In this document: positions 12,044-44,267 of the stretch, one piece after another
Layout of the letters: each line of letters opens with the position of its first letter
How positions within the stretch are numbered: position 1 is the stretch's first letter
IMG/VR virus record: IMGVR_UViG_3300020159_002266
Span: 1-45,340 of that record
Origin: a virus
Strand: one strand, 5' to 3'
Length of the DNA: 45,340 nt
Translations under genes and position numbers: made by a program
Notes under the pieces: model-generated
What the model was told of the DNA's origin: nothing
The model's input: the letters and a program-made list of their open reading frames with translations, nothing else
Database searches by the model: none

Positions 12044-12226
12044 GTGAAAATTCATAACCCTGACAATATTTACGACCTGCAGTCGGTTCTTACTCAACTT
12101 ATTCGCAGCAAACGAAAAGCACGCACTGAATCTGTTTTGTTGAGCAACTCTCTTATGCACGATATTGCTAAACGAATTATTTATCTTGAGAACAAGATTC
12201 AAGAACTAGAGGCAGATAATGACTAA
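12044..12226 (+). CDS. Small hypothetical protein
   Basis: A GTG start directly follows the ParB-like stop. The 60-residue product is helical and basic in the middle (LIRSKRKARTES), ending in the acidic coil LENKIQELEADND. It overlaps the PAPS-reductase-like gene by 8 bases. The tight packing on both sides supports a real gene. The function is unknown; a small partner of its neighbours is possible. Confidence 0.6.
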   Translation: MKIHNPDNIYDLQSVLTQLIRSKRKARTESVLLSNSLMHDIAKRIIYLENKIQELEADND

Positions 12227-13358
12227 GCAGAGAATGTTTCTTAACATTAGTTGCGTTGATGCTGCCAGACAGAGGATAAGACATGTCTATGATACTTTTG
12301 ATACTGTTTGCGTTCAGTTTTCTGGAGGAAAAGACAGCACAGCGGTTCTTTACTTGGCTAAAGAAATTCATGAAGAACGAGGACTTGGACCGGTAAAAGT
12401 AATCTTCCGCGACGAAGAACTTGTCAGTCCTGCTATTTACGAATACGTCAATAAGGTCAGACAGTACGACTGGGTTGACATGGAGTGGTATTGCCTTCCA
12501 GTTCCCCAAGAAGTATGGGTTCTTGGTATTCGGCAGAACATTTTGACATGGGATTCTCAGCGTGCTGAAAAGGGAGAACTTGTCAGGGAAATGCCACCTT
12601 GGTCAATTAACGCATCTCACTTTGGACTTCCTATGGGCGAGCCTCTTCCTGAGATTATTGACTACTACACGATGCAGGGCAAAACAGGCAGTGTCGCTTT
12701 TGTTACTGGCGTACGGGCGAATGAGTCAATGGTTCGCTACAGGTCCTTGGTGCAGAAAGTACACGAAAACTACATTGCCACGCCTTTTAAAATGAAGCGT
12801 TCAATACCGATGAAATTTGCAAAAGTTATTTACGACTGGCAGATAGATGACGTAATGAAGTTTATTGCCGAAGAACACGGCGCAGAGTATTGCGAGTACT
12901 ACGACCTTGCAGCCATGACTGGCTCAAACACCCGAGTTGGCGTTCCTCTCCACGGTGTCGCTATTAGGCGCATAGGAGACCTTGTAGCGACTGAGCCGGA
13001 CTTCTACGACAGATTGTGGGAGATATGGCCTGATATCGACGCTCAGAGGCGCTGGTGGAAAGAATTTGACATGGAGAAGTACATAGATGGTTACGCCATA
13101 GATGGATTTGAGGGTGCCAAGAGATGTGTTGAAGATAATACTTCTGACGAACACGACAGGAGACGAGGGTTTGCCTATATTGCCGACTTCAGGCGCAAAC
13201 ACATTAGAGACCCGTATTCGTATCCGATGAACTGGCTTATTAGAAATCTTTTGCTTGGAGAAATATCAATTGCCTCTGCAGCACCAGTTGGTCCAAAAAC
13301 AAAAGCAGATACGCTGAGGCAGAAGGCAGCACAACAGGAGTTGGATAACAATGAATAA
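12219..13358 (+). CDS. PAPS reductase / IbrA-like ATP-pyrophosphatase
   Basis: The 379-residue protein has the PP-loop signature SGGKDS at 35-40 followed by TAVLYLA, typical of the PAPS reductase superfamily (PF01507). Members include CysH, DndC and IbrA. VIFRDEELVSPAIYEYV and FVTGVRANESMVRYRSL are also consistent. It is larger than CysH and lacks an obvious C-terminal CysH cysteine motif. It lies between two ParB-like genes and overlaps the second by 8 bases, which is the IbrA-IbrB arrangement. The enzyme probably adenylates or transfers sulfur to an unknown substrate, or has a regulatory role. Assimilatory sulfate reduction is unlikely. Confidence 0.85.
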   Translation: MTKQRMFLNISCVDAARQRIRHVYDTFDTVCVQFSGGKDSTAVLYLAKEIHEERGLGPVKVIFRDEELVSPAIYEYVNKVRQYDWVDMEWYCLPVPQEVWVLGIRQNILTWDSQRAEKGELVREMPPWSINASHFGLPMGEPLPEIIDYYTMQGKTGSVAFVTGVRANESMVRYRSLVQKVHENYIATPFKMKRSIPMKFAKVIYDWQIDDVMKFIAEEHGAEYCEYYDLAAMTGSNTRVGVPLHGVAIRRIGDLVATEPDFYDRLWEIWPDIDAQRRWWKEFDMEKYIDGYAIDGFEGAKRCVEDNTSDEHDRRRGFAYIADFRRKHIRDPYSYPMNWLIRNLLLGEISIASAAPVGPKTKADTLRQKAAQQELDNNE

Positions 13359-33124: not shown

Positions 33125-34075
33125 ATGGCTCAAAAATTTATAACACCTATCGCCATTAAGCAGTTGTCCTCTGCTGGCTCTGATGGGTTGACAATTTTTG
33201 TAGACCAAGAAACTTTTGCAAGACTGCAAATCCAAGGTGGCGGTCGCCTTGTCTGGGGCGACGGAACCCAGGGCGGAGACGTAAATCTCTACCGAGATGA
33301 AGCAAACGTCTTAAAAACCGACGACACCTTTAAAGTCCCCACTCTCTTTATTGACGGGATTGAAGTAGACACAACTGGCGCAGCAAGCGACCAAGTTCTT
33401 AAATTCAACGGAACCAAGTTTGTTCCTGGAACCGCATCTACGGTTGCTGCTCTTGATGACTTAACTGACGTAACAATAACGAGCGTTGCTAGTGGTCAGG
33501 TTCTGCAATGGAACGGCACTGCGTGGGTAAACTCCACTGTTGCAGGACCAACAGGGGCAACTGGACCCGCTGGCGCTACGGGAGTGACTGGAGCAACTGG
33601 TGATACTGGTCCAACAGGAGCAGAAGGTCTAGTTGGTGCAGAAGGAGCGGCTGGTGCAGAGGGTGCGACTGGTCCAGAAGGCGCTACAGGTCCAACAGGC
33701 CCAGAAGGCGCGACTGGCGCTACGGGTCCTTCTGGAGTTCCTGGTTCAGATGGTGCGGATGGTGATGATGGTGCTACGGGTCCAGAGGGCGCGACTGGCG
33801 CTACGGGTCCAAGCGGTCCAAGCGGTGCTTCAGGAGCCACTGGTCCCACAGGCTTGGGATATGTAGTTACATCTACATCATCCGTAGTGCTTGAAGGGTT
33901 AGGAACAAGGTCGTTTACATTAAATACAGCAAACCATGCTTATGTAACCGGCATGAGAGTACGAGCCTACGGAACTGGTGGCGGCAATGAAGGCTATGTG
34001 GAAGGAATCGCAACGGTTAGTGGTACAAGCATGCAGATTTTGGTAGACACTGTAGAACAGACAGCAAGCGCGTAA
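33125..34075 (+). CDS. Collagen-like tail fibre
   Basis: The 316-residue protein has a non-repetitive N-terminus of 140 residues ([16 protein letters not shown] start, then [16 protein letters not shown]). Residues 141-242 are 34 uninterrupted Gly-X-Y triplets, mostly GAT, GPT, GPE and GAE. A beta-rich C-terminus ([20 protein letters not shown]) follows. Threonine dominates the Y position and proline is mostly in X. Such segments form trimeric collagen rods in phage fibres. A strong GAGG site precedes ATG. Confidence 0.9.
33545..33850 (+). repeat. Collagen-like Gly-X-Y tract
   Basis: Thirty-four consecutive Gly-X-Y triplets are encoded by degenerate 9-base units. The tract gives long spurious open frames on the opposite strand, in which Pro-Val-Ala-Pro repeats appear. 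Confidence 0.9.
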
Positions 34076-34964: not shown

Positions 34965-35984
34965 ATGGCAAGAACTAGATTTACAGTCAAAGAAGGAATC
35001 TCTGTTGCTGATGACAACAGTGCTGGCGGTTATCCGTTAATTCCAGTAGGTGGGTTAATGCCATATGCGGGTGCAACTTCACCAGAAGGATGGTTTCTTT
35101 GTGATGGCGCTGCAATAAACAGAACAACATACGCAAACTTGTTTGCAGTATTGGGCACAACATACGGAAGCGGAAACGGAACAACTACTTTTAATGTTCC
35201 AGACATGCGTAGTCGCATGCCGATTGGTGCTGGTGCTGGAACTGGATTAACCTCACGAGCGCTTGCGGCAACAGGTGGCGATGAAAGCGTTGTTATCGCT
35301 TCTGGAAATCTTCCTACACATGTTCACTCTATTGCACACGACCATGCAAATGTAACATCAACAGGACAAAGCGTTGACCATAGTCATTCCATAGACCCAC
35401 CGAATACGACATCTGGAAATGACAACACTGAGCATACACATTCCATTGACCCACCAAATACGACTTCAACTGGGACGAATGTTAACCATAGTCACGATAC
35501 TGACCCAGCAAACACAACATCAGGTGGTCAAAACAATGACCATTATCATTTAACTGGTGGATACCACACCCACTCATACAAAGCCGCTCAAACTGCTACT
35601 GCTGGTACAAACCGTGCCATTCTGACTGGTACTGGTTCTGGAGCAATAACCGGTGGAATTAACGATGAATATGCTGGAACGACAGGTTGGACGGCATTGG
35701 ACCACACGCACAATACAAATATTGGCGCTACAACATCAGGTGGTCACAGCGTTGACCATAGTCATGATACCAATATTGCTGCTTTTACTTCTGGTGGTCG
35801 TAGTGCTTATCACCAACATGATGTCAATATTGCCCCTTTCACTTCTGGTGGCGCAAGCGTTGGACACACACACGATGTTGACCTTCCAAACTTTACTGGT
35901 GATTCGGGCAACGGTGGATTTGCAAACACTGCACTCGCATTAATGAACCCATTTTTAGCCGTTAACTACATTATTAAGTACTAA
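34965..35984 (+). CDS. Tail collar protein with His-x-His repeats
   Basis: The ATG at 34965 has GAGGA upstream and is preferred over a longer GTG start at 34920. The 339-residue protein holds a phage tail collar domain (PF07484): [27 protein letters not shown] and [15 protein letters not shown] near residues 20-90. Two tracts, about 134-200 and 245-310, contain nine His-x-His units (DHSHS, EHTHS, NHSHD, DHYHL, YHTHS, DHTHN, DHSHD, YHQHD, GHTHD). Spaced His-x-His motifs in trimeric fibres such as T4 gp37 bind iron. Confidence 0.9.
35369..35884 (+). repeat. His-x-His repeat region in the collar gene
   Basis: Nine His-x-His motifs occur, often with about 20 residues per unit and the linker text DPPNTTSG or TSGGxSxxH. 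The units are similar at DNA level (ACxATAGTCAT patterns), so they probably arose by duplication. Confidence 0.85.
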
Positions 35985-35986
35985 TC

Positions 35987-36679
35987 ATGGCTATTGACTT
36001 TCCAAACTCACCGCTCACAAACGACCTTCACTCAGTTTCGGGGAAGACGTGGAAGTGGGATGGAGAAAAATGGGTTGTCATTTACACAGACCTGTCTGGA
36101 CCTATTGGTGCGACGGGTTCAACAGGACCCACAGGACTAACAGGCGCGACTGGTCCAACAGGGTTAACTGGCGCGACAGGACCTACAGGCTTGACAGGAG
36201 CAACTGGCCCAACGGGTGTCGCAGCAACGATTGCTGTAGGAACAACTACTGGTGGAGCAACTGGTGCTGTAACGAATAGCGGAACATCGGGTGCTGCAGT
36301 GCTTGACTTTGTTGTTCCAATTGGGGCAACTGGGCCTACCGGACCTACGGGTGTAACTGGACCTACAGGTCCTACAGGTCCGACTGGTGTTACGGGCGCG
36401 ACTGGGGTAACAGGACCCACAGCAATTACAAGTTCTGCAACTGCGCCAGTATCTCCTTCTGCTGGTCAGGTTTGGTTTGATACAACTACTGGCGCTTCAT
36501 ACATCTACTACAACTCAGCATGGGTTGAACTAGGTGGCGGTTCAATGTCGCCACTCCCAACTTTGTCTTCCACCCTTCCTACGTCACCATGGGCTGGCCA
36601 AATGGTTTACGAAACAAACACAAAACTTCTTAAAATTTACAACGGAACTTCCTGGAAAACCGTACTGGATGCAACCTGA
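35987..36679 (+). CDS. Collagen-like fibre with DFxxPxGATG domain
   Basis: The 230-residue protein starts with a [25 protein letters not shown] module also seen in the next gene. Collagen triplets follow, then a beta segment ([39 protein letters not shown]), more triplets, and a [21 protein letters not shown] module. The C-terminus has [25 protein letters not shown]. Several modules recur elsewhere in this fibre region, which indicates module shuffling. Confidence 0.85.
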
Positions 36680-37443
36680 TGCCAGCGATTACTTTTCCTG
36701 CTTCTCCATACCAATATCAGATTTATACAGTCGGCTCTAAGAGTTGGCAATGGGACGGTTCTGTATGGGCTGCCTACTACAACGAGAGCGTTGACTCTGT
36801 TTATGGAACCGGTGCTGACGGTGATGCGACTCTAGACGGAACGACAACCGTTTTAGGCATGGCTCCATCTTCAAGCGTTTACTCCATGACTACAGACATG
36901 TTTTTCAACGATTTAACCATCAACGCGAACGTTCGTCTTGCTCCTAATGGATACAGAATTTTTGTTAAAGGCACATTGAAGTTTATGGGAACTAACTCCA
37001 CGATTGGTTATACGGCTGGGTTTGCAACTTCTGGTTCAATCATGCAGGGTGGGGCGGCATCAACAGCGGTAACTCACTCATTAGGTGGTTCTGCTACTGG
37101 ATACACAGCAACAGCGCCTACCGCAGGTATGGGTGGTTCCACTTATTTTCAAGTGCCTCACCAAGCGATAACTGGATACTCAATGACGGCATCAGGTGGT
37201 CCTACATTTCTTCGTGGAGGCGCTGGAGGAACTGCACAAGCAGGTGGTGGAGTCGTCATCATTGCTGCTCGTTACATTTCTGGTCCTGCATCAGGTACGG
37301 CCTACATCAAAGCCCCAGGAACCGCACCTGCAGGTGGAGGAGTAATACTTATCGTTTCTTCTGCTGCAACATTGGCTGCTGGAATTACTACAGACGTAAC
37401 TGGACAAAATCCAGGCACCGTCTACTATATGTCACAGGTGTGA
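36679..37443 (+). CDS. Glycine-rich adhesin-like fibre, short paralogue
   Basis: The 254-residue protein opens with the same FPASPYQ...KSWQWDGSVW module. It continues with VYGTGADGDATLDGTTTVLG and LAPNGYRIFVKGTLKFMGTN, matching the N-terminus of the next gene. Its Gly-rich core (LRGGAGGTAQAGGGVVIIAARYI, then PAGGGVILIVSSAATL) and ending in VYYMSQV match the same gene's C-terminus. It therefore looks like a version without the long insertions. The ATG overlaps the previous TGA. Confidence 0.8.
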   Translation: MPAITFPASPYQYQIYTVGSKSWQWDGSVWAAYYNESVDSVYGTGADGDATLDGTTTVLGMAPSSSVYSMTTDMFFNDLTINANVRLAPNGYRIFVKGTLKFMGTNSTIGYTAGFATSGSIMQGGAASTAVTHSLGGSATGYTATAPTAGMGGSTYFQVPHQAITGYSMTASGGPTFLRGGAGGTAQAGGGVVIIAARYISGPASGTAYIKAPGTAPAGGGVILIVSSAATLAAGITTDVTGQNPGTVYYMSQV

Positions 37444-37444
37444 T

Positions 37445-39253
37445 ATGGCTATTTCAAGAATAGAAAGTAGCGTAGTTGGTGAAGGTAATGATGCTATTTA
37501 CGGCAACGGAGCAGATGGCGATGTAGTTATTACAGGAACAGTCACACTTACGTCTGATAGGTACTACAAAAACCTAAGCGTCCCACTAGGCAATGTTCTT
37601 ATAACTAACGGATTTCGTGTTTTTGTTCAAGATACCGCAACAATAAATGGCGTTGTCGGTATTGGAAATGTTTCTGGCAATGTTGATGGCTCGTCGAATG
37701 GAACAATTACTTCTCATTCGTCCGGAGTATCAACAGGGACTCTTGCGGGAACTCTGTCATCTGCAATTTCTTATCGCTTAGGAGGCCAAGGGGGTGGCGG
37801 CACCAACCCGAATATTCCGCTTTTGCCTTCGTATTTAGTAACAAGACTGGAGGCTTTGTCTGGTGTTGTTATTAGTGCTGAACACGGTTCTACAACTCCA
37901 ATCTTAATTGCTGGCGGCTCGGGCGGAGCAACGGGCACTGCCGGTTCATCTACTACCGCTTACACCAACGAAAACCCTGCTCCTGCTGGTTTTTCAAACT
38001 CGTGGCCTAACAAGTCGGGCGCTACTGGTACTGCTGGCGCAACTGGTTCTGCAGGCGCAACTGGTTCGCCTGGTTCTGCAGGTTCTGCAGGTTCTGCTGG
38101 TGCAACTGGTACACCTGGCGGCGCAGGTGGTGCAGGTTCTGCAGGTGCTAACGGAACTTACCCCCCTAATGCCACGACAGTAAATGCTGTTGGAGGAAAA
38201 GGTAATCCTGGTGCTGCCGGTACCGCTGGTTCTGCTGGCGCTTCTGGTTCACCTGGGGCAGTAGGTGCTTCTGGTTCTGCAGGTGCTTCTGGTTCGCCTG
38301 GCACTTCTGGTTCACCTGGTGCTTCTGGTTCACCTGGTCAAGCACCCATTACTCCCTTAGCAGCGACAGGTGGAGCAGGTGGAGCAGGTGGAGCAGGTGG
38401 AGGCGTTGTTGCAATAGTTGCAAAAACAATACTTGGCTCAGGGACAATAATGTCGTTGGGAATAGTTGGTTCTGTTGGCTCCGCTGGCATAACAGTCCCA
38501 GCAGGGCCAAATGGAACGACTGGCGCTTCTGGTGCACCAGGTTCTGCTGGTTCACCCGGTGCTTCTGGTTCACCCGGTGCTTCTGGTTCTCCTGGTTCTG
38601 CAGGTACGCCTGGTACTGCTGGTACAACTGGTGCTGCCGGTGCTAAGGCACCGGACTATACGGTCCATCATCACCACTCTGCGACTATTCATGACCCTCA
38701 TACACATCATTTCCATGCTTACCCCGTAACCATTCATGACCCACATACATGTTGCGGCGGGCATCATCACGACCCGGGCAGTAAATTTGTTTCCGCTGCC
38801 CACTATCAGCACCACCATAATCACTCTGCGGTTATTCATGCTCCCCATACTGGGCATAGTCACAACCACTCTGCAACCATTCATGCACCTTGCTGTACGG
38901 TAAGTCCTGGTCATCATTACACAGGCGGAGCAGGAGGAGCAGGTGGAGCAGCAGGTACAGCAGGTACAGGCGGAGCAGGTGGAGCAGGCGGAGCAGGCGG
39001 AGCAGGTGGTGCAGGTGGAGCAGGAGGAGCGACAGGCGGAGCAGGTGGTGCAGGAGGAGCAGGCGGTACCGGGTCCCCAGCAGTAAGTAGCGGAACAGGA
39101 AAAAGGGGTGGCGCAGGCGGAGGTGGTGCTATTTTTATATTTACGGAAGCAACACCGGCTAGTATTAACTATGACGTTCGTTCAGGAACAACCGCAGATG
39201 CTGACAATTTTTCGGCATCAAACGGTGCAACATACATTATAATCAACCAGTAG
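37445..39253 (+). CDS. Large glycine-rich adhesin with collagen-like segments and a His/Cys-rich centre
   Basis: The 602-residue protein has an N-terminal domain similar to the previous gene. Gly-X-Y segments at about 191-239, 253-299 and 353-401 (GASGSPG, GSAG units) follow. Residues about 403-494 hold 27 His and 4 Cys, in repeats of SATIHDPH / SAVIHAPHT / SATIHAPCC. Next is a (GGA)n tract at about 494-543, similar to polyglycine-II adhesins such as S16 gp38. A C-terminal strand segment, AIFIFTEATPASINYDV, ends it. It is probably the receptor-binding tip or its cap. The metal-binding role is inferred from composition. Confidence 0.85.
   Translation: MAISRIESSVVGEGNDAIYGNGADGDVVITGTVTLTSDRYYKNLSVPLGNVLITNGFRVFVQDTATINGVVGIGNVSGNVDGSSNGTITSHSSGVSTGTLAGTLSSAISYRLGGQGGGGTNPNIPLLPSYLVTRLEALSGVVISAEHGSTTPILIAGGSGGATGTAGSSTTAYTNENPAPAGFSNSWPNKSGATGTAGATGSAGATGSPGSAGSAGSAGATGTPGGAGGAGSAGANGTYPPNATTVNAVGGKGNPGAAGTAGSAGASGSPGAVGASGSAGASGSPGTSGSPGASGSPGQAPITPLAATGGAGGAGGAGGGVVAIVAKTILGSGTIMSLGIVGSVGSAGITVPAGPNGTTGASGAPGSAGSPGASGSPGASGSPGSAGTPGTAGTTGAAGAKAPDYTVHHHHSATIHDPHTHHFHAYPVTIHDPHTCCGGHHHDPGSKFVSAAHYQHHHNHSAVIHAPHTGHSHNHSATIHAPCCTVSPGHHYTGGAGGAGGAAGTAGTGGAGGAGGAGGAGGAGGAGGATGGAGGAGGAGGTGSPAVSSGTGKRGGAGGGGAIFIFTEATPASINYDVRSGTTADADNFSASNGATYIIINQ
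38017..39072 (+). repeat. Collagen-like, His/Cys-rich and GGA tracts of the adhesin
   Basis: Three Gly-X-Y blocks lie before the His/Cys region at about 38652-38925, and a GGA block lies at about 38924-39072. The DNA repeats are degenerate (ggttctgca, ggtgcttct, ggagcaggt units). Confidence 0.85.
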
Positions 39254-39262
39254 GAGAAAATT

Positions 39263-39496
39263 ATGGGAATATTTGACGGAATAAGCCAAGCAGACAAAAA
39301 AAGACTTCTTGCTATGGAAATAAGTAGTACACAAATAAATTTGTTCACCCTCTTGCTACAGATAGGCATTGACCCGGACACGTTTGATGACACAACATGG
39401 ACCGAGACGCTAAATATGGAAACGCCTACGGGAAGAGTACGACACTACATTGACCTAATTACCTCAATGAAAGTTAAATTAGCAGAACTGACGTAA
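39263..39496 (+). CDS. Small hypothetical protein
   Basis: The 77-residue product starts after a GGAGAAAA ribosome site. It is mostly helical (DKKRLLAMEISSTQINLFTLLLQIGIDPD, then RVRHYIDLITSMKVKLAEL). It overlaps the next gene by one base. The function is unknown; its position between adhesin and modification cassette may be coincidental. Confidence 0.65.
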   Translation: MGIFDGISQADKKRLLAMEISSTQINLFTLLLQIGIDPDTFDDTTWTETLNMETPTGRVRHYIDLITSMKVKLAELT

Positions 39497-39885
39497 TGAT
39501 TAGGTGTGTTTTGGTTCCTAAAGTCTTAGTTATTGACGGAAGAATTCCAGAAGAAGCAAAAAAACTAGCGCGTATGTTTTCTCTAGAGACAAGAATAAGC
39601 GAAACGGCAAACGAAATAGAGATAGTCTCCGAACCGAGAATACGGGATGTTTCATATTCAAAGAATTATGCGCTGGGTAGAATATGGTCACTCAACGTAA
39701 AAAATGAATTCTTAGATATGGCAAATGAATGCTTTGTAAGCGTTAACGGAAAAATTTTTTACCCAAAGATACAAGAAAAACACGCTATGAAATTTAGAAT
39801 TCGCTTAACAGACAGTCATCAAGTAAATTTTGTAATTTACATCAACGGTGAAGTGTTTTTTTCTGACAGCATTTTTGAGGCTTAA
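39496..39885 (+). CDS. Hypothetical protein of the fibre/cassette junction
   Basis: The 129-residue product has a helical N-terminus, then strands (NFVIYINGEVFFSDSIFEA at the end). Segments such as GRIWSLNVKNEFLDMANECFVSVNGKIF suggest a small alpha/beta fold. I see no known motif. It runs in step with its neighbours (TAATG start, 2-base gap after) and is likely translated with them. Confidence 0.65.
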   Translation: MIRCVLVPKVLVIDGRIPEEAKKLARMFSLETRISETANEIEIVSEPRIRDVSYSKNYALGRIWSLNVKNEFLDMANECFVSVNGKIFYPKIQEKHAMKFRIRLTDSHQVNFVIYINGEVFFSDSIFEA

Positions 39886-39887
39886 AC

Positions 39888-40454
39888 ATGAAAGTTTTAC
39901 AACCTGCTCCGTGCATTTCAGTGTATAAAAAATCTATTGACACCTATTCTTTCATGACTGATGTTAATTCAGAAATAAACAATCAATGGTCGGAAATACA
40001 ATGGTCAAACTCAACTGTTGGTGCCGGAACCGTCAATGATTATAGAACTTCCGCAGAAGCCGACATAAGTCATTTACTAAATTCAAATTCAAGTACGGCT
40101 CAAAAATTTCATAAAATTTCCGCCTACATCCTTGAGGAAATTATGAACGACTATAGAGACGAACATCTGGTCAGCACTTCTCGTTATGAAGGATGGAGGT
40201 TGTTGAAGTATTCAGGAGGCGGAGAGTATCACGCCCACTACGACCACTCTCCGAGGAACAGCAGAACGGTAAGCATCGTTGCGTTTTTGGAACAACCAGA
40301 ACTTGGTGGAGAATTAGAATTTCCATTTTTTAATACCAAGATTCAACCGGAAGTTGGTGACGTTGTCGTATTCCCGTCTAACTATCCTTATGTTCATATA
40401 GCACACCCGGTAACGGCAGGCACAAAGTGTAGTCTTGTGACATGGTTTCAGTAA
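39888..40454 (+). CDS. 2OG-Fe(II) dioxygenase, prolyl-4-hydroxylase-like
   Basis: The 188-residue protein has the full dioxygenase triad. His117-x-Asp119 lies in YHAHYDH and the distal His173 in HPVTAGTK, with Lys180 as likely 2-oxoglutarate contact. RYEGWRLLKYSGGGEY, FLEQPELGGELEF and GDVVVFPSN are typical of the P4H/2OG-FeII_Oxy_3 family. Substrate is unknown. Family members hydroxylate prolines in peptides, and this gene lies among collagen-like fibres. Proline in those fibres is mostly in the X position, unlike the usual P4H site, so another target is possible. It overlaps the next gene by 13 bases. Confidence 0.9.
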   Translation: MKVLQPAPCISVYKKSIDTYSFMTDVNSEINNQWSEIQWSNSTVGAGTVNDYRTSAEADISHLLNSNSSTAQKFHKISAYILEEIMNDYRDEHLVSTSRYEGWRLLKYSGGGEYHAHYDHSPRNSRTVSIVAFLEQPELGGELEFPFFNTKIQPEVGDVVVFPSNYPYVHIAHPVTAGTKCSLVTWFQ

Positions 40455-41566
40455 GACCCATCTCCGAATTGACGATTGCCCCCGATGGGTGCTTTGCTTT
40501 TGTGGGCCCATGTACGAGTTTGACTATTGCGTACGAACACCCGACCGGGCTTAAAGAAAAAGAAGATTTTGAAGCGTTTGCTCACCCAACTGGGACGATA
40601 ATCAGATTGGAAAGAATGCGTTTGTCCGAGAACAACACGTGGGGACTTACCGCAGTTCTTGACTCTGGTGAAGAATATTTTCTTCATTTACCTACATATG
40701 AAGAAAATTACAAATTCTGGGAAAATAAAGAATTAGGTCCTCATGAGTTTTTGGGATTTTTAGATTCAGTAGAAATAGTAAATGAAACAAGCAAGCCTTT
40801 CTCGGTAGATGATAGATGCGACAAAGACGGATACGGCCCTCGCGTACACAGCGTTACCGACGGGATAAAGCCAACCCCTCTTGATTTCTCGCTGTTCACA
40901 AATCCAACTTCTTTGACTCCAATGATTAACTTAAACGGAGTTTCGCACATTACTTCACAGTCCATACACGGAATAGGTATGTCTTGGAGAAACTGGCCTT
41001 GCGTTACTCTTACCGCGCGCACATTATCTGGAATGCTTCGTCAATTATGTGAATGGAAATACCTATACGAAGAAGGTATTGCTACAGAATACTACGCAGA
41101 ACAAGCGCATCTCTTTATTGAGACGCTAGGGATTACTGAAGAAATGATTGAAGAATTAAAAAATTCAGAAGTCCCCATGCCTACCGAAAGATTTATGAGA
41201 GGGTACGGAGACCCACGTCATGGATTTAATGAAACAGGAAACTTGCCACTGTCTATAAAAAACCATCTTAAAAAACAATTGTTTTACAATACGCTTTCTT
41301 CTTTGGAGTCTCAGCACCCTAGCCATCCAGAAATAGAACAAACATTAAAAAACGAAGAAAAAGAATTCAATGAGAAAAACATTTTCATGTACGCAAAAGC
41401 AAGACTTCCAGAAGTACCAATAAGTGAAATAACTATTGAAGAAATATATGACTCTTATTATTCTTTAGGTAAGTACAAAGGCATATTAAAGCCCATCCTT
41501 AGCCAACATGTTGAAATAGCCAATAACGGTCTGAAAGCAGCAAGGTTTTTTGATGCAACATCCTAA
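40442..41566 (+). CDS. Unrecognised 374-residue protein in the modification cassette
   Basis: The gene overlaps the dioxygenase gene by 13 bases and the halogenase gene by 14, so co-translation is likely. The N-terminus is beta-rich (GCFAFVGPCTSLTIAYEHP, then FAHPTGTIIRLERMRLSENN). The middle has HITSQSIHGIGMSWRNWP, and the C-terminal half is helical and charged (EIEQTLKNEEKEFNEKNIF). No standard motif for an enzyme, reductase or transport protein is seen. A partner or substrate-carrier function is possible but unproven. Confidence 0.75.
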   Translation: MVSVRPISELTIAPDGCFAFVGPCTSLTIAYEHPTGLKEKEDFEAFAHPTGTIIRLERMRLSENNTWGLTAVLDSGEEYFLHLPTYEENYKFWENKELGPHEFLGFLDSVEIVNETSKPFSVDDRCDKDGYGPRVHSVTDGIKPTPLDFSLFTNPTSLTPMINLNGVSHITSQSIHGIGMSWRNWPCVTLTARTLSGMLRQLCEWKYLYEEGIATEYYAEQAHLFIETLGITEEMIEELKNSEVPMPTERFMRGYGDPRHGFNETGNLPLSIKNHLKKQLFYNTLSSLESQHPSHPEIEQTLKNEEKEFNEKNIFMYAKARLPEVPISEITIEEIYDSYYSLGKYKGILKPILSQHVEIANNGLKAARFFDATS

Positions 41567-43034
41567 TCAATTAAATTTTTGCATTGTAGGTTCTGGTACG
41601 GCAGGGCTTATTACTTCTTTAATTTTAAGAAAATCTTTTCCAAATGCAGAGATAACAAATATTTCGTCAAGCAAGATAGGGATAGTTGGAGTAGGCGAAG
41701 GGAGCACCGAGCATTGGAAAACATTTATGCAAAGATGCGACATAGGCGTTGACGAACTAATAAAAAACACCGGAGCAACACACAAGTACGGAATTCGTTT
41801 TGAGAATTGGACAAACGCAATACCGGACTATTTTCACAGTGTTTCTGGGTCGGAAGAAATAGAAGCACTTGGACTCATTGGAGAGTACTTAAGTTTTATA
41901 GAAAACAAAAAACTTTTGACGACCCAATTTGGTTCTGTAGGTTTAATCAAAAATAAAATTATGCGAGAAAATTTGCACAATAACACTAATCAGTTTCATT
42001 TTGACACCAACATGCTTAATGACTTTTTAGTTGGCGTTTGCTTCAAGCGCATGATTAAGTTTATAGACGACGAAGTAGGTTCTCTTTCCTTTGACCAGAA
42101 CGGCTATATAGAATCAGCCACCCTCATATCTGGACTTAGTGTTACAGCAGACGTATGGATAGATGCAACCGGTTTTAGACGAGATTTAATGAGCAAGATG
42201 GACAATAAAAGTTGGAAGTCTTTTTCAGACGAACTTATTGTTGACTCTGCAATAGCATTCCCAACAGAAGCAAATCCCGACGGAAAAATAAAACCCTACA
42301 CACGAGCAATAGCAGCATCGTCTGGCTGGATGTGGGAGATACCAACGCAAACCCGTAGAGGTAATGGTTATGTATATTCTTCTAATCACATTTCAGAAGA
42401 ACAAGCGGTAGAAGAAGCAAGAAAGATTTCTGGATACGATATTGAGCCCGCACGTTCTTTTAAGTTTGACCCTGGTTATTTTTCAGAACAATGGAAAAAA
42501 AATTGCATTTGTGTTGGATTGGCATCGTCTTTTGTTGAACCTCTAGAAGCAACAAGTATTGGTAGCACTATTCTTCAGGCAACACATATATCTCAGTACT
42601 GTTCATCATTTGTCCCTGGGGCAGAAAAAATGACTGCGGACTACAATCGTAAAATGGAAAAAATGATGCTTAACATTAGAGATATGATTAGGCTGCATTA
42701 TATGTCGGACCGAACAGATACTAATTTTTGGAAAGATGTTTCGTCTGCGCCTGTGTCGGATTCTTTGGCAGAATTAATTGACCTATGGTCGGAAAGGGCA
42801 CCAGGACACTACGACGTGCCATACAACGGTCATTCGATGTTTCTTGCAAGACATTTTATTCATGTCGCTCAAGGACAAAATTTAATTTCTTCGTTACCTA
42901 GTTCTTTGGCTATGGACAGATTTAACATAAGAAGTCTTGTAGAAAAAAAATCTGACGACATAAGAAACTTTAGACACTCTAGAGAACTTGTTGACCACAA
43001 AGAGGCCCTGATGGAGACAGTAAATGAAAATTAA
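41553..43034 (+). CDS. Flavin-dependent tryptophan-halogenase-like enzyme
   Basis: Start at ATG 41553 with AAGG 7 bases upstream (TTG 41550 is an alternative), giving 493 residues. The FAD-binding fold starts CIVGSGTAGL. GVGEGS near 46-51 is the halogenase GxGExT loop. Lys78 in ATHKYGIRFENW matches the catalytic lysine (Lys79 in PrnA). The WxWxIP signature is at 259-264 (WMWEIP). GLASSFVEPLEATSI near 328 is the conserved FVEPLE element. DATGFRRDL is the second flavin motif. The keys to halogenation are therefore intact. A flavin reductase is not seen nearby. The true substrate and halide are unknown; it could act on a peptide, a free amino acid or another metabolite. Confidence 0.9.
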   Translation: MQHPNQLNFCIVGSGTAGLITSLILRKSFPNAEITNISSSKIGIVGVGEGSTEHWKTFMQRCDIGVDELIKNTGATHKYGIRFENWTNAIPDYFHSVSGSEEIEALGLIGEYLSFIENKKLLTTQFGSVGLIKNKIMRENLHNNTNQFHFDTNMLNDFLVGVCFKRMIKFIDDEVGSLSFDQNGYIESATLISGLSVTADVWIDATGFRRDLMSKMDNKSWKSFSDELIVDSAIAFPTEANPDGKIKPYTRAIAASSGWMWEIPTQTRRGNGYVYSSNHISEEQAVEEARKISGYDIEPARSFKFDPGYFSEQWKKNCICVGLASSFVEPLEATSIGSTILQATHISQYCSSFVPGAEKMTADYNRKMEKMMLNIRDMIRLHYMSDRTDTNFWKDVSSAPVSDSLAELIDLWSERAPGHYDVPYNGHSMFLARHFIHVAQGQNLISSLPSSLAMDRFNIRSLVEKKSDDIRNFRHSRELVDHKEALMETVNEN

Positions 43035-43812
43035 AAGTTTTAACATCAACAAATTAAAAAAAGTAAAACCAGGTTCTCTTAGAATCACGACAGTTGACAA
43101 CAGGTTTTACAACGACGCTCCTTATGTGAATTCTAAATCAAAACTTCCTAGTTGGTTTAAAACAATACATAAAGGAGAAGGCTCTGTACGTTCATGCTCT
43201 GGAATATCGGATTTTTTAGAACACGGAGTAACAATACCTGCGTGGACAAATTTTACGTTTAAGCCAAACGTATCATCGGGCGTGTGGGAAATTTTGGCTA
43301 GTCCACTAAACCCACAAATAGATTTTCCAATGGCTTCCGGGTTTCATTTTGTGCAAACCGGAACTTGTCCGATGACAGAAATAAGAAAAATTGAAAAAAT
43401 GTCTTATCCAAAATTACTGACTCCGTGGAGAATACAAACAGCACCAGGATGGTCATCCCTAATGCTTCCCGCTCTCTATGAAGAGAATGATAACTACTCT
43501 GTTCTTCCGGCAATTATAAACACGGATTTTTATCAAATATCAAATATTGTGCTAAACATTAAAACCGATACAGAATTTACCATCAAGCAAGGAACTCCAT
43601 TGGTGCACCTAATACCAGTGCAGAGAAAAAACGATATAAAAAACATTGAATTTATAGATGAATCTTTTTTTAAGTATGCATCTTCGGGAATGTACTTAAC
43701 AGGAGGAATTGCCCCTGTTGGCGGCGATACTGGAATAGCATATAGAAAAGCAACAAAGACCGTTGACGCCGCTCTTGAATCTAATAAAAAAAGATGGTTT
43801 AGTCGTGGTTAA
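43024..43812 (+). CDS. Unrecognised protein following the halogenase
   Basis: The 262-residue product overlaps the halogenase by 11 bases. It contains KLPSWFKTIHKGEGSVRSCSG, WTNFTFKPNVSSG, a Trp/Pro-rich centre (TPWRIQTAPGWSSLMLPALYE), and IKQGTPLVHLIPVQRK. I recall similar genes beside halogenases in phages, but I am not certain of a family name. The fold may be cupin-like because of the GTPLVHLIP pattern, which is a guess. The tight coupling suggests action with the enzymes upstream. Confidence 0.75.
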   Translation: MKIKSFNINKLKKVKPGSLRITTVDNRFYNDAPYVNSKSKLPSWFKTIHKGEGSVRSCSGISDFLEHGVTIPAWTNFTFKPNVSSGVWEILASPLNPQIDFPMASGFHFVQTGTCPMTEIRKIEKMSYPKLLTPWRIQTAPGWSSLMLPALYEENDNYSVLPAIINTDFYQISNIVLNIKTDTEFTIKQGTPLVHLIPVQRKNDIKNIEFIDESFFKYASSGMYLTGGIAPVGGDTGIAYRKATKTVDAALESNKKRWFSRG

Positions 43813-44041
43813 CGATACTTACAGATTTGACGTAAGTGATTACCGCAACCGCACAGACAATAAGTACTTCCCAAATACCGAAGAAGACTGGAAAGAATTC
43901 TTGTGGAAGGTTCATTTTCTGGGAGGCAAGTCAATAATACTGATTTGGCATTTTGACCAACTAGAAAAGAAAGCACGCAGAGATGCTGAGAAAAATAACT
44001 CAAGCAATAAAGACAATGTCTTACAAGAGGTACTGGACTAA
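43805..44041 (+). CDS. Small hypothetical protein
   Basis: A GTG at 43805 within the end of the previous gene gives 78 residues; TTG at 43763 would add 14. The product has YRFDVSDYRNRTDNKYFPNTEEDWKEFLWKVHFLG followed by a charged helix (QLEKKARRDAEKNNSS). No family is recognised. It overlaps the next membrane gene, and both start choices are uncertain. Confidence 0.5.
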   Translation: MVNDTYRFDVSDYRNRTDNKYFPNTEEDWKEFLWKVHFLGGKSIILIWHFDQLEKKARRDAEKNNSSNKDNVLQEVLD

Positions 44042-44267
44042 GCCAAATATTGTAGAAGCATGGGGGTTTGCCACCAAGATTGCCATCATCTTTCCTGGCT
44101 TGCTTCTTGGCTACCAGTGGTGGTGGGTTTATATCTTTGCCATTCTGTCAAGTCTCGCACTTATTTGGTCTTCAACCGAAAAAACCCTACCGACAATCAT
44201 TCTTTTCAATGTGATGTGGGTGATTTTGGCCAGTCTTTCCATCCTGAAGAACTTCTGGTGGTTCTAA
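43983..44267 (+). CDS. Small membrane protein
   Basis: The 94-residue product (or 83 from ATG 44016) has a basic N-terminus and three hydrophobic segments: ATKIAIIFPGLLLGYQWWW, VYIFAILSSLALIW, and TIILFNVMWVILASLSIL. The ends are Trp-rich. It could be a holin, an anti-holin or a superinfection-exclusion protein. The overlap with the previous gene and its place in the fibre region are unusual for a lysis gene. Confidence 0.65.
   Translation: MLRKITQAIKTMSYKRYWTKPNIVEAWGFATKIAIIFPGLLLGYQWWWVYIFAILSSLALIWSSTEKTLPTIILFNVMWVILASLSILKNFWWF

Follow-up and report, generated by a model that had tools for sequence, protein, structure and literature searches.

A conserved halogenase and oxygenase cassette beside His-rich, collagen-like phage fibre genes: a candidate module for fibre-tip modification

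The stretch of DNA analysed here (hereafter the window; IMG/VR virus record IMGVR_UViG_3300020159_002266) comprises 45,340 bases, is probably an incomplete piece of a genome, and runs from the portal, terminase, tail sheath and baseplate wedge genes into a long fibre region. Within the latter lies a cassette of four genes, all on the + strand: OXY (39888..40454), for a prolyl-4-hydroxylase-like 2-oxoglutarate (2OG)-Fe(II) oxygenase of 188 residues; U374 (40442..41566), for an orphan protein of 374 residues; HAL (41553..43034), for a flavin-dependent halogenase of 493 residues; and U262 (43024..43812), for a protein of 262 residues with a dUTPase-like fold from which the catalytic Asp has been lost. 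The list of open reading frames (ORFs) in the window agrees with an earlier, sequence-only reading as to the presence and position of these genes and their overlaps of 11-14 bases (13 for OXY/U374, 14 for U374/HAL and 11 for HAL/U262), HAL being taken here from the ATG at 41553, one codon downstream of the TTG given in the list. That reading also placed the cassette between collagen-like Gly-X-Thr proteins, and such genes are indeed found at 33125, 35987 and 44636; however, the fibre gene nearest to the cassette (37445..39253, + strand) is not chiefly of the Gly-X-Thr type.

This gene encodes a collagen-like/polyglycine fibre protein of 602 residues (Pfam Collagen, 3.9e-17, together with PHROG tail fibre matches), which is the proposed substrate of the cassette enzymes. 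Between its collagen-like (residues 192-400) and polyglycine (residues 494-545) blocks there is an insert of 84 residues (408-491; 38666..38917, + strand), overlooked previously, which includes 27 His residues as well as Tyr, Phe, Cys and Pro. The sequence of the insert is highly variable among relatives of the fibre, while its His-rich character is kept, frequently alongside Tyr, Trp, Pro and Asn; the best 60-residue window of every complete relative contains 23-45% His. As targets for a halogenase, the His, Tyr and Trp residues found in the insert look more suitable than anything that the Gly-X-Thr proteins offer. The scarcity of prolines at the Y position of the repeats, once advanced against a standard prolyl-4-hydroxylase (P4H) substrate, is real in the Gly-X-Thr proteins, which have 0-2 each, but the argument fails for the adjacent fibre, in which 13 of the 82 Gly-X-Y triplets have Pro at Y and a further 10 have Thr. 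The Gly-rich blocks flanking a variable insert recall the gp38 adhesin tips of S16 and T2-type phages, in which Gly-rich lattice segments of a polyglycine II sandwich are combined with variable receptor loops (PMC12892980), although the window fibre is collagen-like, carries a long His-rich insert and is known from its sequence alone.

Two samples of loci from uncultured phages describe the association of fibre and cassette, one chosen by the halogenase and the other by the N-terminus of the fibre alone, regardless of halogenases (the best 80 of 243 matching stretches). In the halogenase-first sample, an ORF rich in His (at least 15% His in 60 residues) lies within 4 kb upstream in 66 of the 70 loci with enough upstream sequence, the exceptions (L060-L063) being four copies of one lineage. 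At a threshold of at least 20% His in 60 residues, 56 of 676 non-redundant ORFs of at least 150 residues qualify, and 53 of these 56 belong to the present fibre family. Conversely, HAL is located 0.3-2.5 kb downstream of the fibre in all 64 fibre-first loci having more than 1.5 kb of sequence beyond it, a number that includes duplicates and corresponds to ca. 47 distinct fibres. U262 is present at every fibre-first locus whose sequence reaches far enough and OXY at nearly all of them, not being found in L126, L135, L137 and L143, and no fibre relative without the cassette occurs among the best 80 of the 243 stretches. The linkage of fibre and cassette is thus near absolute in both directions and, because dozens of divergent contigs share the gene order, the association is far above chance. 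The fibre family of the window has no match in cultured phages, and at one locus (L064) a halogenase of the window type stands beside Gly-rich fibres.

Both OXY and HAL look active, since their catalytic residues and motifs are conserved, and the identities first assigned to them are borne out by Pfam. OXY (PF13640, 2OG-FeII_Oxy_3, 4e-14; PHROG_61) yields a profile that matches the P4H structures 3itq and 5hv0 at 9e-12; in an alignment with 35 relatives, the Fe ligands H117, D119 and H170 of the HxD...H triad are invariant and the 2OG-binding residue K180 is kept in at least 90%. HAL belongs by sequence to the flavin-dependent halogenase family PF04820 (Trp_halogenase, 1.2e-98), with the motifs GxGxxG (GSGTAG) at residue 13 and WxWxIP (WMWEIP) at residue 259, the catalytic K78 and the active-site E332; among the aligned phage halogenases, the Lys is found in 43 of 43 and the Glu in 41 of 43. 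The tryptophan halogenases PrnA, RebH and SttH share these four features and provide the closest solved structures, whereas HAL adjoins a phage fibre gene and is not accompanied by a tryptophan biosynthetic cluster.

A comparable neighbourhood surrounds VirX1 of cyanophage Syn10 (CPUG_00131, a 100% match to PDB 6qgm), an iodinating, flavin-dependent halogenase of the same superfamily as HAL. The Syn10 module consists of Gly-rich fibre tips, a 164-residue protein, a first halogenase, VirX1, a homologue of U262 (PHROG_7084, 1.8e-71) and a number of 2OG oxygenases, one of which is a JmjC_2 protein. JmjC_2 enzymes include protein His/Arg hydroxylases; we know of no report of the natural substrate of VirX1. 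The two modules differ in that the fibre of Syn10 belongs to another family and its 2OG oxygenases lie downstream, rather than upstream as in the window. HAL and VirX1 themselves are 27% identical and differ in the Glu motif (EATS in HAL, ESTG in VirX1), and a relationship as direct orthologues or members of one subfamily was ruled out by this identity and by the separate VirX1 clade (support 100/99); in the halogenase tree, the window clade is closer to P-SSM2 and S-H38. Fibre linkage requires five changes on this tree, three of them forced by well-supported branches, and the tree argues for neither a single nor a repeated origin. Modules like that of Syn10 are seen in the stretches read of P-TIM40, S-RIM44, Sf-CH3 and S-WAM1, and a halogenase is present in all 20 cultured records with a Syn10-type fibre. 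In S-SRM01, a halogenase directly precedes an annotated gp37-gp38 adhesin tip, whose loop is rich in Cys and Trp (L194:7485-8573).

Records of the cyanophage species S-RIM44 that include the Gly-rich fibre have three halogenase places, and those that lack the fibre have one. When read directly, isolates Np_42_0711 and Np_20_0711 have two halogenases, three genes for Gly-rich fibres and one further gene, identified in Np_42_0711 as a homologue of U262, while in Np_05_0604 and Sn_08_0709 the tip is of another kind and a halogenase is absent from that place; one small gene in Np_05_0604 resembles, by eye, a 2OG oxygenase. Because the isolates differ in both respects while the neck-terminase flank is near-identical (97.3% over 3,257 bases), the fibre tip and the halogenases travel together, and are gained or lost together.

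In a Pfam search of the window proteins, neither U262 nor U374 gave a significant match of its own. U262 is a relative of PHROG_7084 (2.4e-20), a family of unknown function, and its predicted structure (predicted local distance difference test score, pLDDT, 84.7) has the fold of a dUTPase subunit, as found by Foldseek (E 3.4e-5; template modelling score, by target, 0.72). In addition, 13 of 36 relatives match the dUTPase family PF00692 (best 1.1e-6). dUTPases are usually trimers. In nearly all of the U262 family, however, the catalytic Asp of dUTPase motif 3 (VIDxDY) is replaced by Asn or His ([HN]TD[YF]Y), the VVNTDYY of U262 being aligned by profile with the VIDSDYR of dUTPase 3c3i; as a consequence, hydrolysis of dUTP by U262 is not expected. 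DUF6065 (PF19541) does not match U262 and is matched by 4 of the 36 relatives below the family cut-off (best 0.0024), and the U262 profile fails to find nearly all of the bacterial DUF6065 proteins examined. An inherited bacterial DUF6065-halogenase pair was considered and dropped, as no halogenase profile match was present in nine DUF6065 regions with wider flanks (up to 19 kb). U374, which occurs in 15 loci, is predicted (pLDDT 82) to consist of a beta N-domain and a helical C-domain, and has no PHROG match and no match in cultured phages. Proteins of ca. 230 residues, which come after U262 in the majority of the other cassettes, belong to the same family, U374 being its long form; the U374 profile finds them at about 1e-9 to 1e-12. 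Searched by fold, U374 matched nothing in the PDB at an E value below 0.03 apart from noise of immunoglobulin-like type.

The most economical reading of these observations, and in our estimate the best explanation with a probability of roughly 0.6, is that the phage hydroxylates and halogenates its own fibre tip after translation. The cassette genes and the fibre would then constitute a tail-fibre maturation module, in which a tip built of collagen-like and polyglycine segments would display a region of variable loops containing much His as well as Tyr, Trp, Pro and Asn. OXY would hydroxylate residues of the tip, and HAL, using reduced flavin supplied by the host, would halogenate electron-rich side chains of the loops (Tyr, Trp or His). 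U262 would probably serve as an adaptor or docking factor uniting enzyme and fibre, and U374 and the small proteins would be accessory; for U262 and U374, these roles are guesses from fold and position. The likely benefit would be a change in receptor binding, or greater toughness, cross-linking or metal tuning of the tip. A pathway modifying the phage's own fibres had been suggested from the window alone, and the suggestion finds strong support in the linkage at 64 of 64 and 66 of 70 loci and in the joint swapping in S-RIM44, while the fibre stays a putative substrate.

Related chemistry has been described on peptides. A flavin-dependent brominase acts on proteusins, which are ribosomally synthesized and post-translationally modified peptides (RiPPs; PMC10858898), and QhpG, an enzyme with a halogenase-like fold, dihydroxylates a peptidyl Trp (PMC7876137). 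The active site of VirX1 is large and open (PMC8407142), which fits bulky substrates. The RiPP brominase system resembles the present proposal in directing halogenase chemistry at a ribosomal peptide, but the substrate proposed here is a large structural fibre, and no leader-core precursor was recognised, no dedicated precursor search having been made. The His-rich jaw proteins of Nereis, reportedly halogenated, were considered as an analogy and are not used as evidence, as the paper checked did not confirm halogenated histidine in them, although 5-bromohistidine has been reported from a sponge (PMC8659048).

Several considerations weigh against modification of the fibre tip. Fibre loci are known to acquire genes, so that proximity alone can mislead, and the activity of the enzymes, their substrate and the modification of the virion are all predictions from genes. 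No cassette-free member of the fibre family was found among the 80 fibre-first loci, so the His insert cannot be compared with and without the enzymes. In the L060-L063 lineage, no His-rich fibre lies within 4 kb of the OXY-HAL-U262 cassette, which adjoins other fibre-like genes, and the Gly-rich tips of the cyanophages are much poorer in His than the window fibre family. The candidate adaptor role of U262 derives solely from its fold and the loss of the catalytic Asp, and the bacterial DUF6065 loci examined give no support for a partnership with halogenases. Furthermore, lone halogenases away from fibre genes are found in P-SSM2, HTVC008M, Syn1, S-PM2, S-MbCM6, S-B64 and S-SSM7; these may be metabolic, and because of them not every phage halogenase fits fibre modification.

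The lone halogenases, which in several cyanophages lie among metabolic genes, bear on the principal alternative, in which HAL and OXY would modify a small molecule of the host (tryptophan, indole or a pigment) as auxiliary metabolism and the fibre locus would merely collect cargo genes. This is also how the literature has tended to view such enzymes, their purpose being called speculative, with antibiotic protection as one suggestion (PMC2984593), or assigned to auxiliary metabolism, with altered host metabolites (PMC10452541) and protection of the cell (PMC9146016) as further, similarly speculative, roles. We nevertheless consider auxiliary metabolism unlikely for the cassette, as it leaves unexplained why a single His-rich fibre family is linked to the cassette almost without exception, why the same gene set stands beside different fibre families, and why the enzymes are swapped jointly with the fibre tip of S-RIM44. 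The sequence-only reading had held that a metabolic role would be favoured by related phages carrying the cassette without collagen-like genes; other cyanophages do have halogenases that stand alone and off-fibre, but only in L060-L063 is the OXY-HAL-U262 set seen to lack a collagen-like or His-rich fibre, and there it still lies beside fibre-like genes.

More doubtful is the explanation that the His-rich tip works as a receptor device by binding metal and that the enzymes are passengers or serve another function of the fibre region. The model for such a tip is gp37 of T4, HxH motifs being known to bind iron in phage fibres (PMC11705849), and the His insert is full of HxH motifs; HxH repeats are present in the collar-like fibre at 34965-35984 too. 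However, a halogenase is not required for metal binding, and in the cyanophages the same enzymes go with tips far poorer in His; metal binding and modification of the tip may also coexist. Least probable of all is an action of the enzymes, in the course of infection, on a molecule of the host surface, for instance the receptor. This might serve to block superinfection or release progeny, with the enzymes co-evolving with the fibre, and would also account for the co-segregation with the tip. Against it, the enzymes look cytoplasmic (no signal peptide was seen by eye) and need flavin and 2-oxoglutarate, whereas most receptors are outside, and the His- and aromatic-rich insert would be a coincidence.

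Cyanophage halogenases have been known for well over a decade, and no paper proposing fibre modification by phage halogenases was found in the literature searched, which did not include the original VirX1 paper. Extended beyond the window, modification of the fibre tip would mean that T4-like phages of a widespread class add halogen and hydroxyl groups to their own receptor-binding fibre tips after translation, with the aid of an adaptor of dUTPase fold, that VirX1 and the other halogenases linked to fibres in cyanophages act on the fibre and not in auxiliary metabolism, and that tip and enzymes form one exchangeable unit, a generalisation to which we would give about even odds. The linkage to fibre tips in itself provides the halogenases with a concrete candidate substrate and with cultured phages for testing it, among them paired S-RIM44 isolates of which some have the module and others lack it. 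If the proposal is true, phage receptor-binding proteins acquire a chemical layer on top of their sequence variation, and the fibre-linked phage halogenases become candidate tools for the halogenation of proteins.

Other proteins recur around the cassette. On the + strand of the window, a fibre protein of 254 residues (36679..37443), a paralogue without the His insert, lies directly upstream of the main fibre in 73 of 84 loci. Two conserved small module proteins, also encoded on the + strand, fill the space before OXY: one of 77 residues (39263..39496), at the same place in 29 loci, with similar proteins of ca. 79 residues near HAL in 54 loci, and one of 129 residues (39496..39885), at the same place in 30 loci, with a further cluster of ca. 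140 residues in 39 loci. Just downstream of the cassettes, a protein of 94 residues (43983..44267, + strand) is found in 52 loci with up to 88% identity; it contains hydrophobic stretches and is better conserved than the enzymes.

Elsewhere, a 235-residue protein stands near HAL in 22 loci (L030:297-1004), as do proteins identified by eye as glycosyltransferase-like, in clusters of nine and eight loci (L032:11656-12723 and L081:10858-11694), which suggests further fibre-linked modification genes. An array in L224 (G001:C74, 243-8852) contains seven 2OG oxygenases matching the OXY profile and a DUF6065-like protein of 239 residues near a fibre-like gene, without a halogenase, and is possibly an oxygenase-only version of the module. 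Three contigs with the module (L086, L087 and L088) were binned in bacterial metagenome-assembled genomes (Actinomycetota and Gammaproteobacteria); since they look like phage contigs, host inference from them is uncertain. In the window itself, the tail-collar-like fibre (34965-35984) has about ten HxH repeats and 23 His in 339 residues and is a candidate metal-binding fibre, and within the structural region there is an auxiliary metabolic gene, for 3'-phosphoadenosine-5'-phosphosulfate (PAPS) reductase (12219-13358; PHROG_2302, 6.7e-74).

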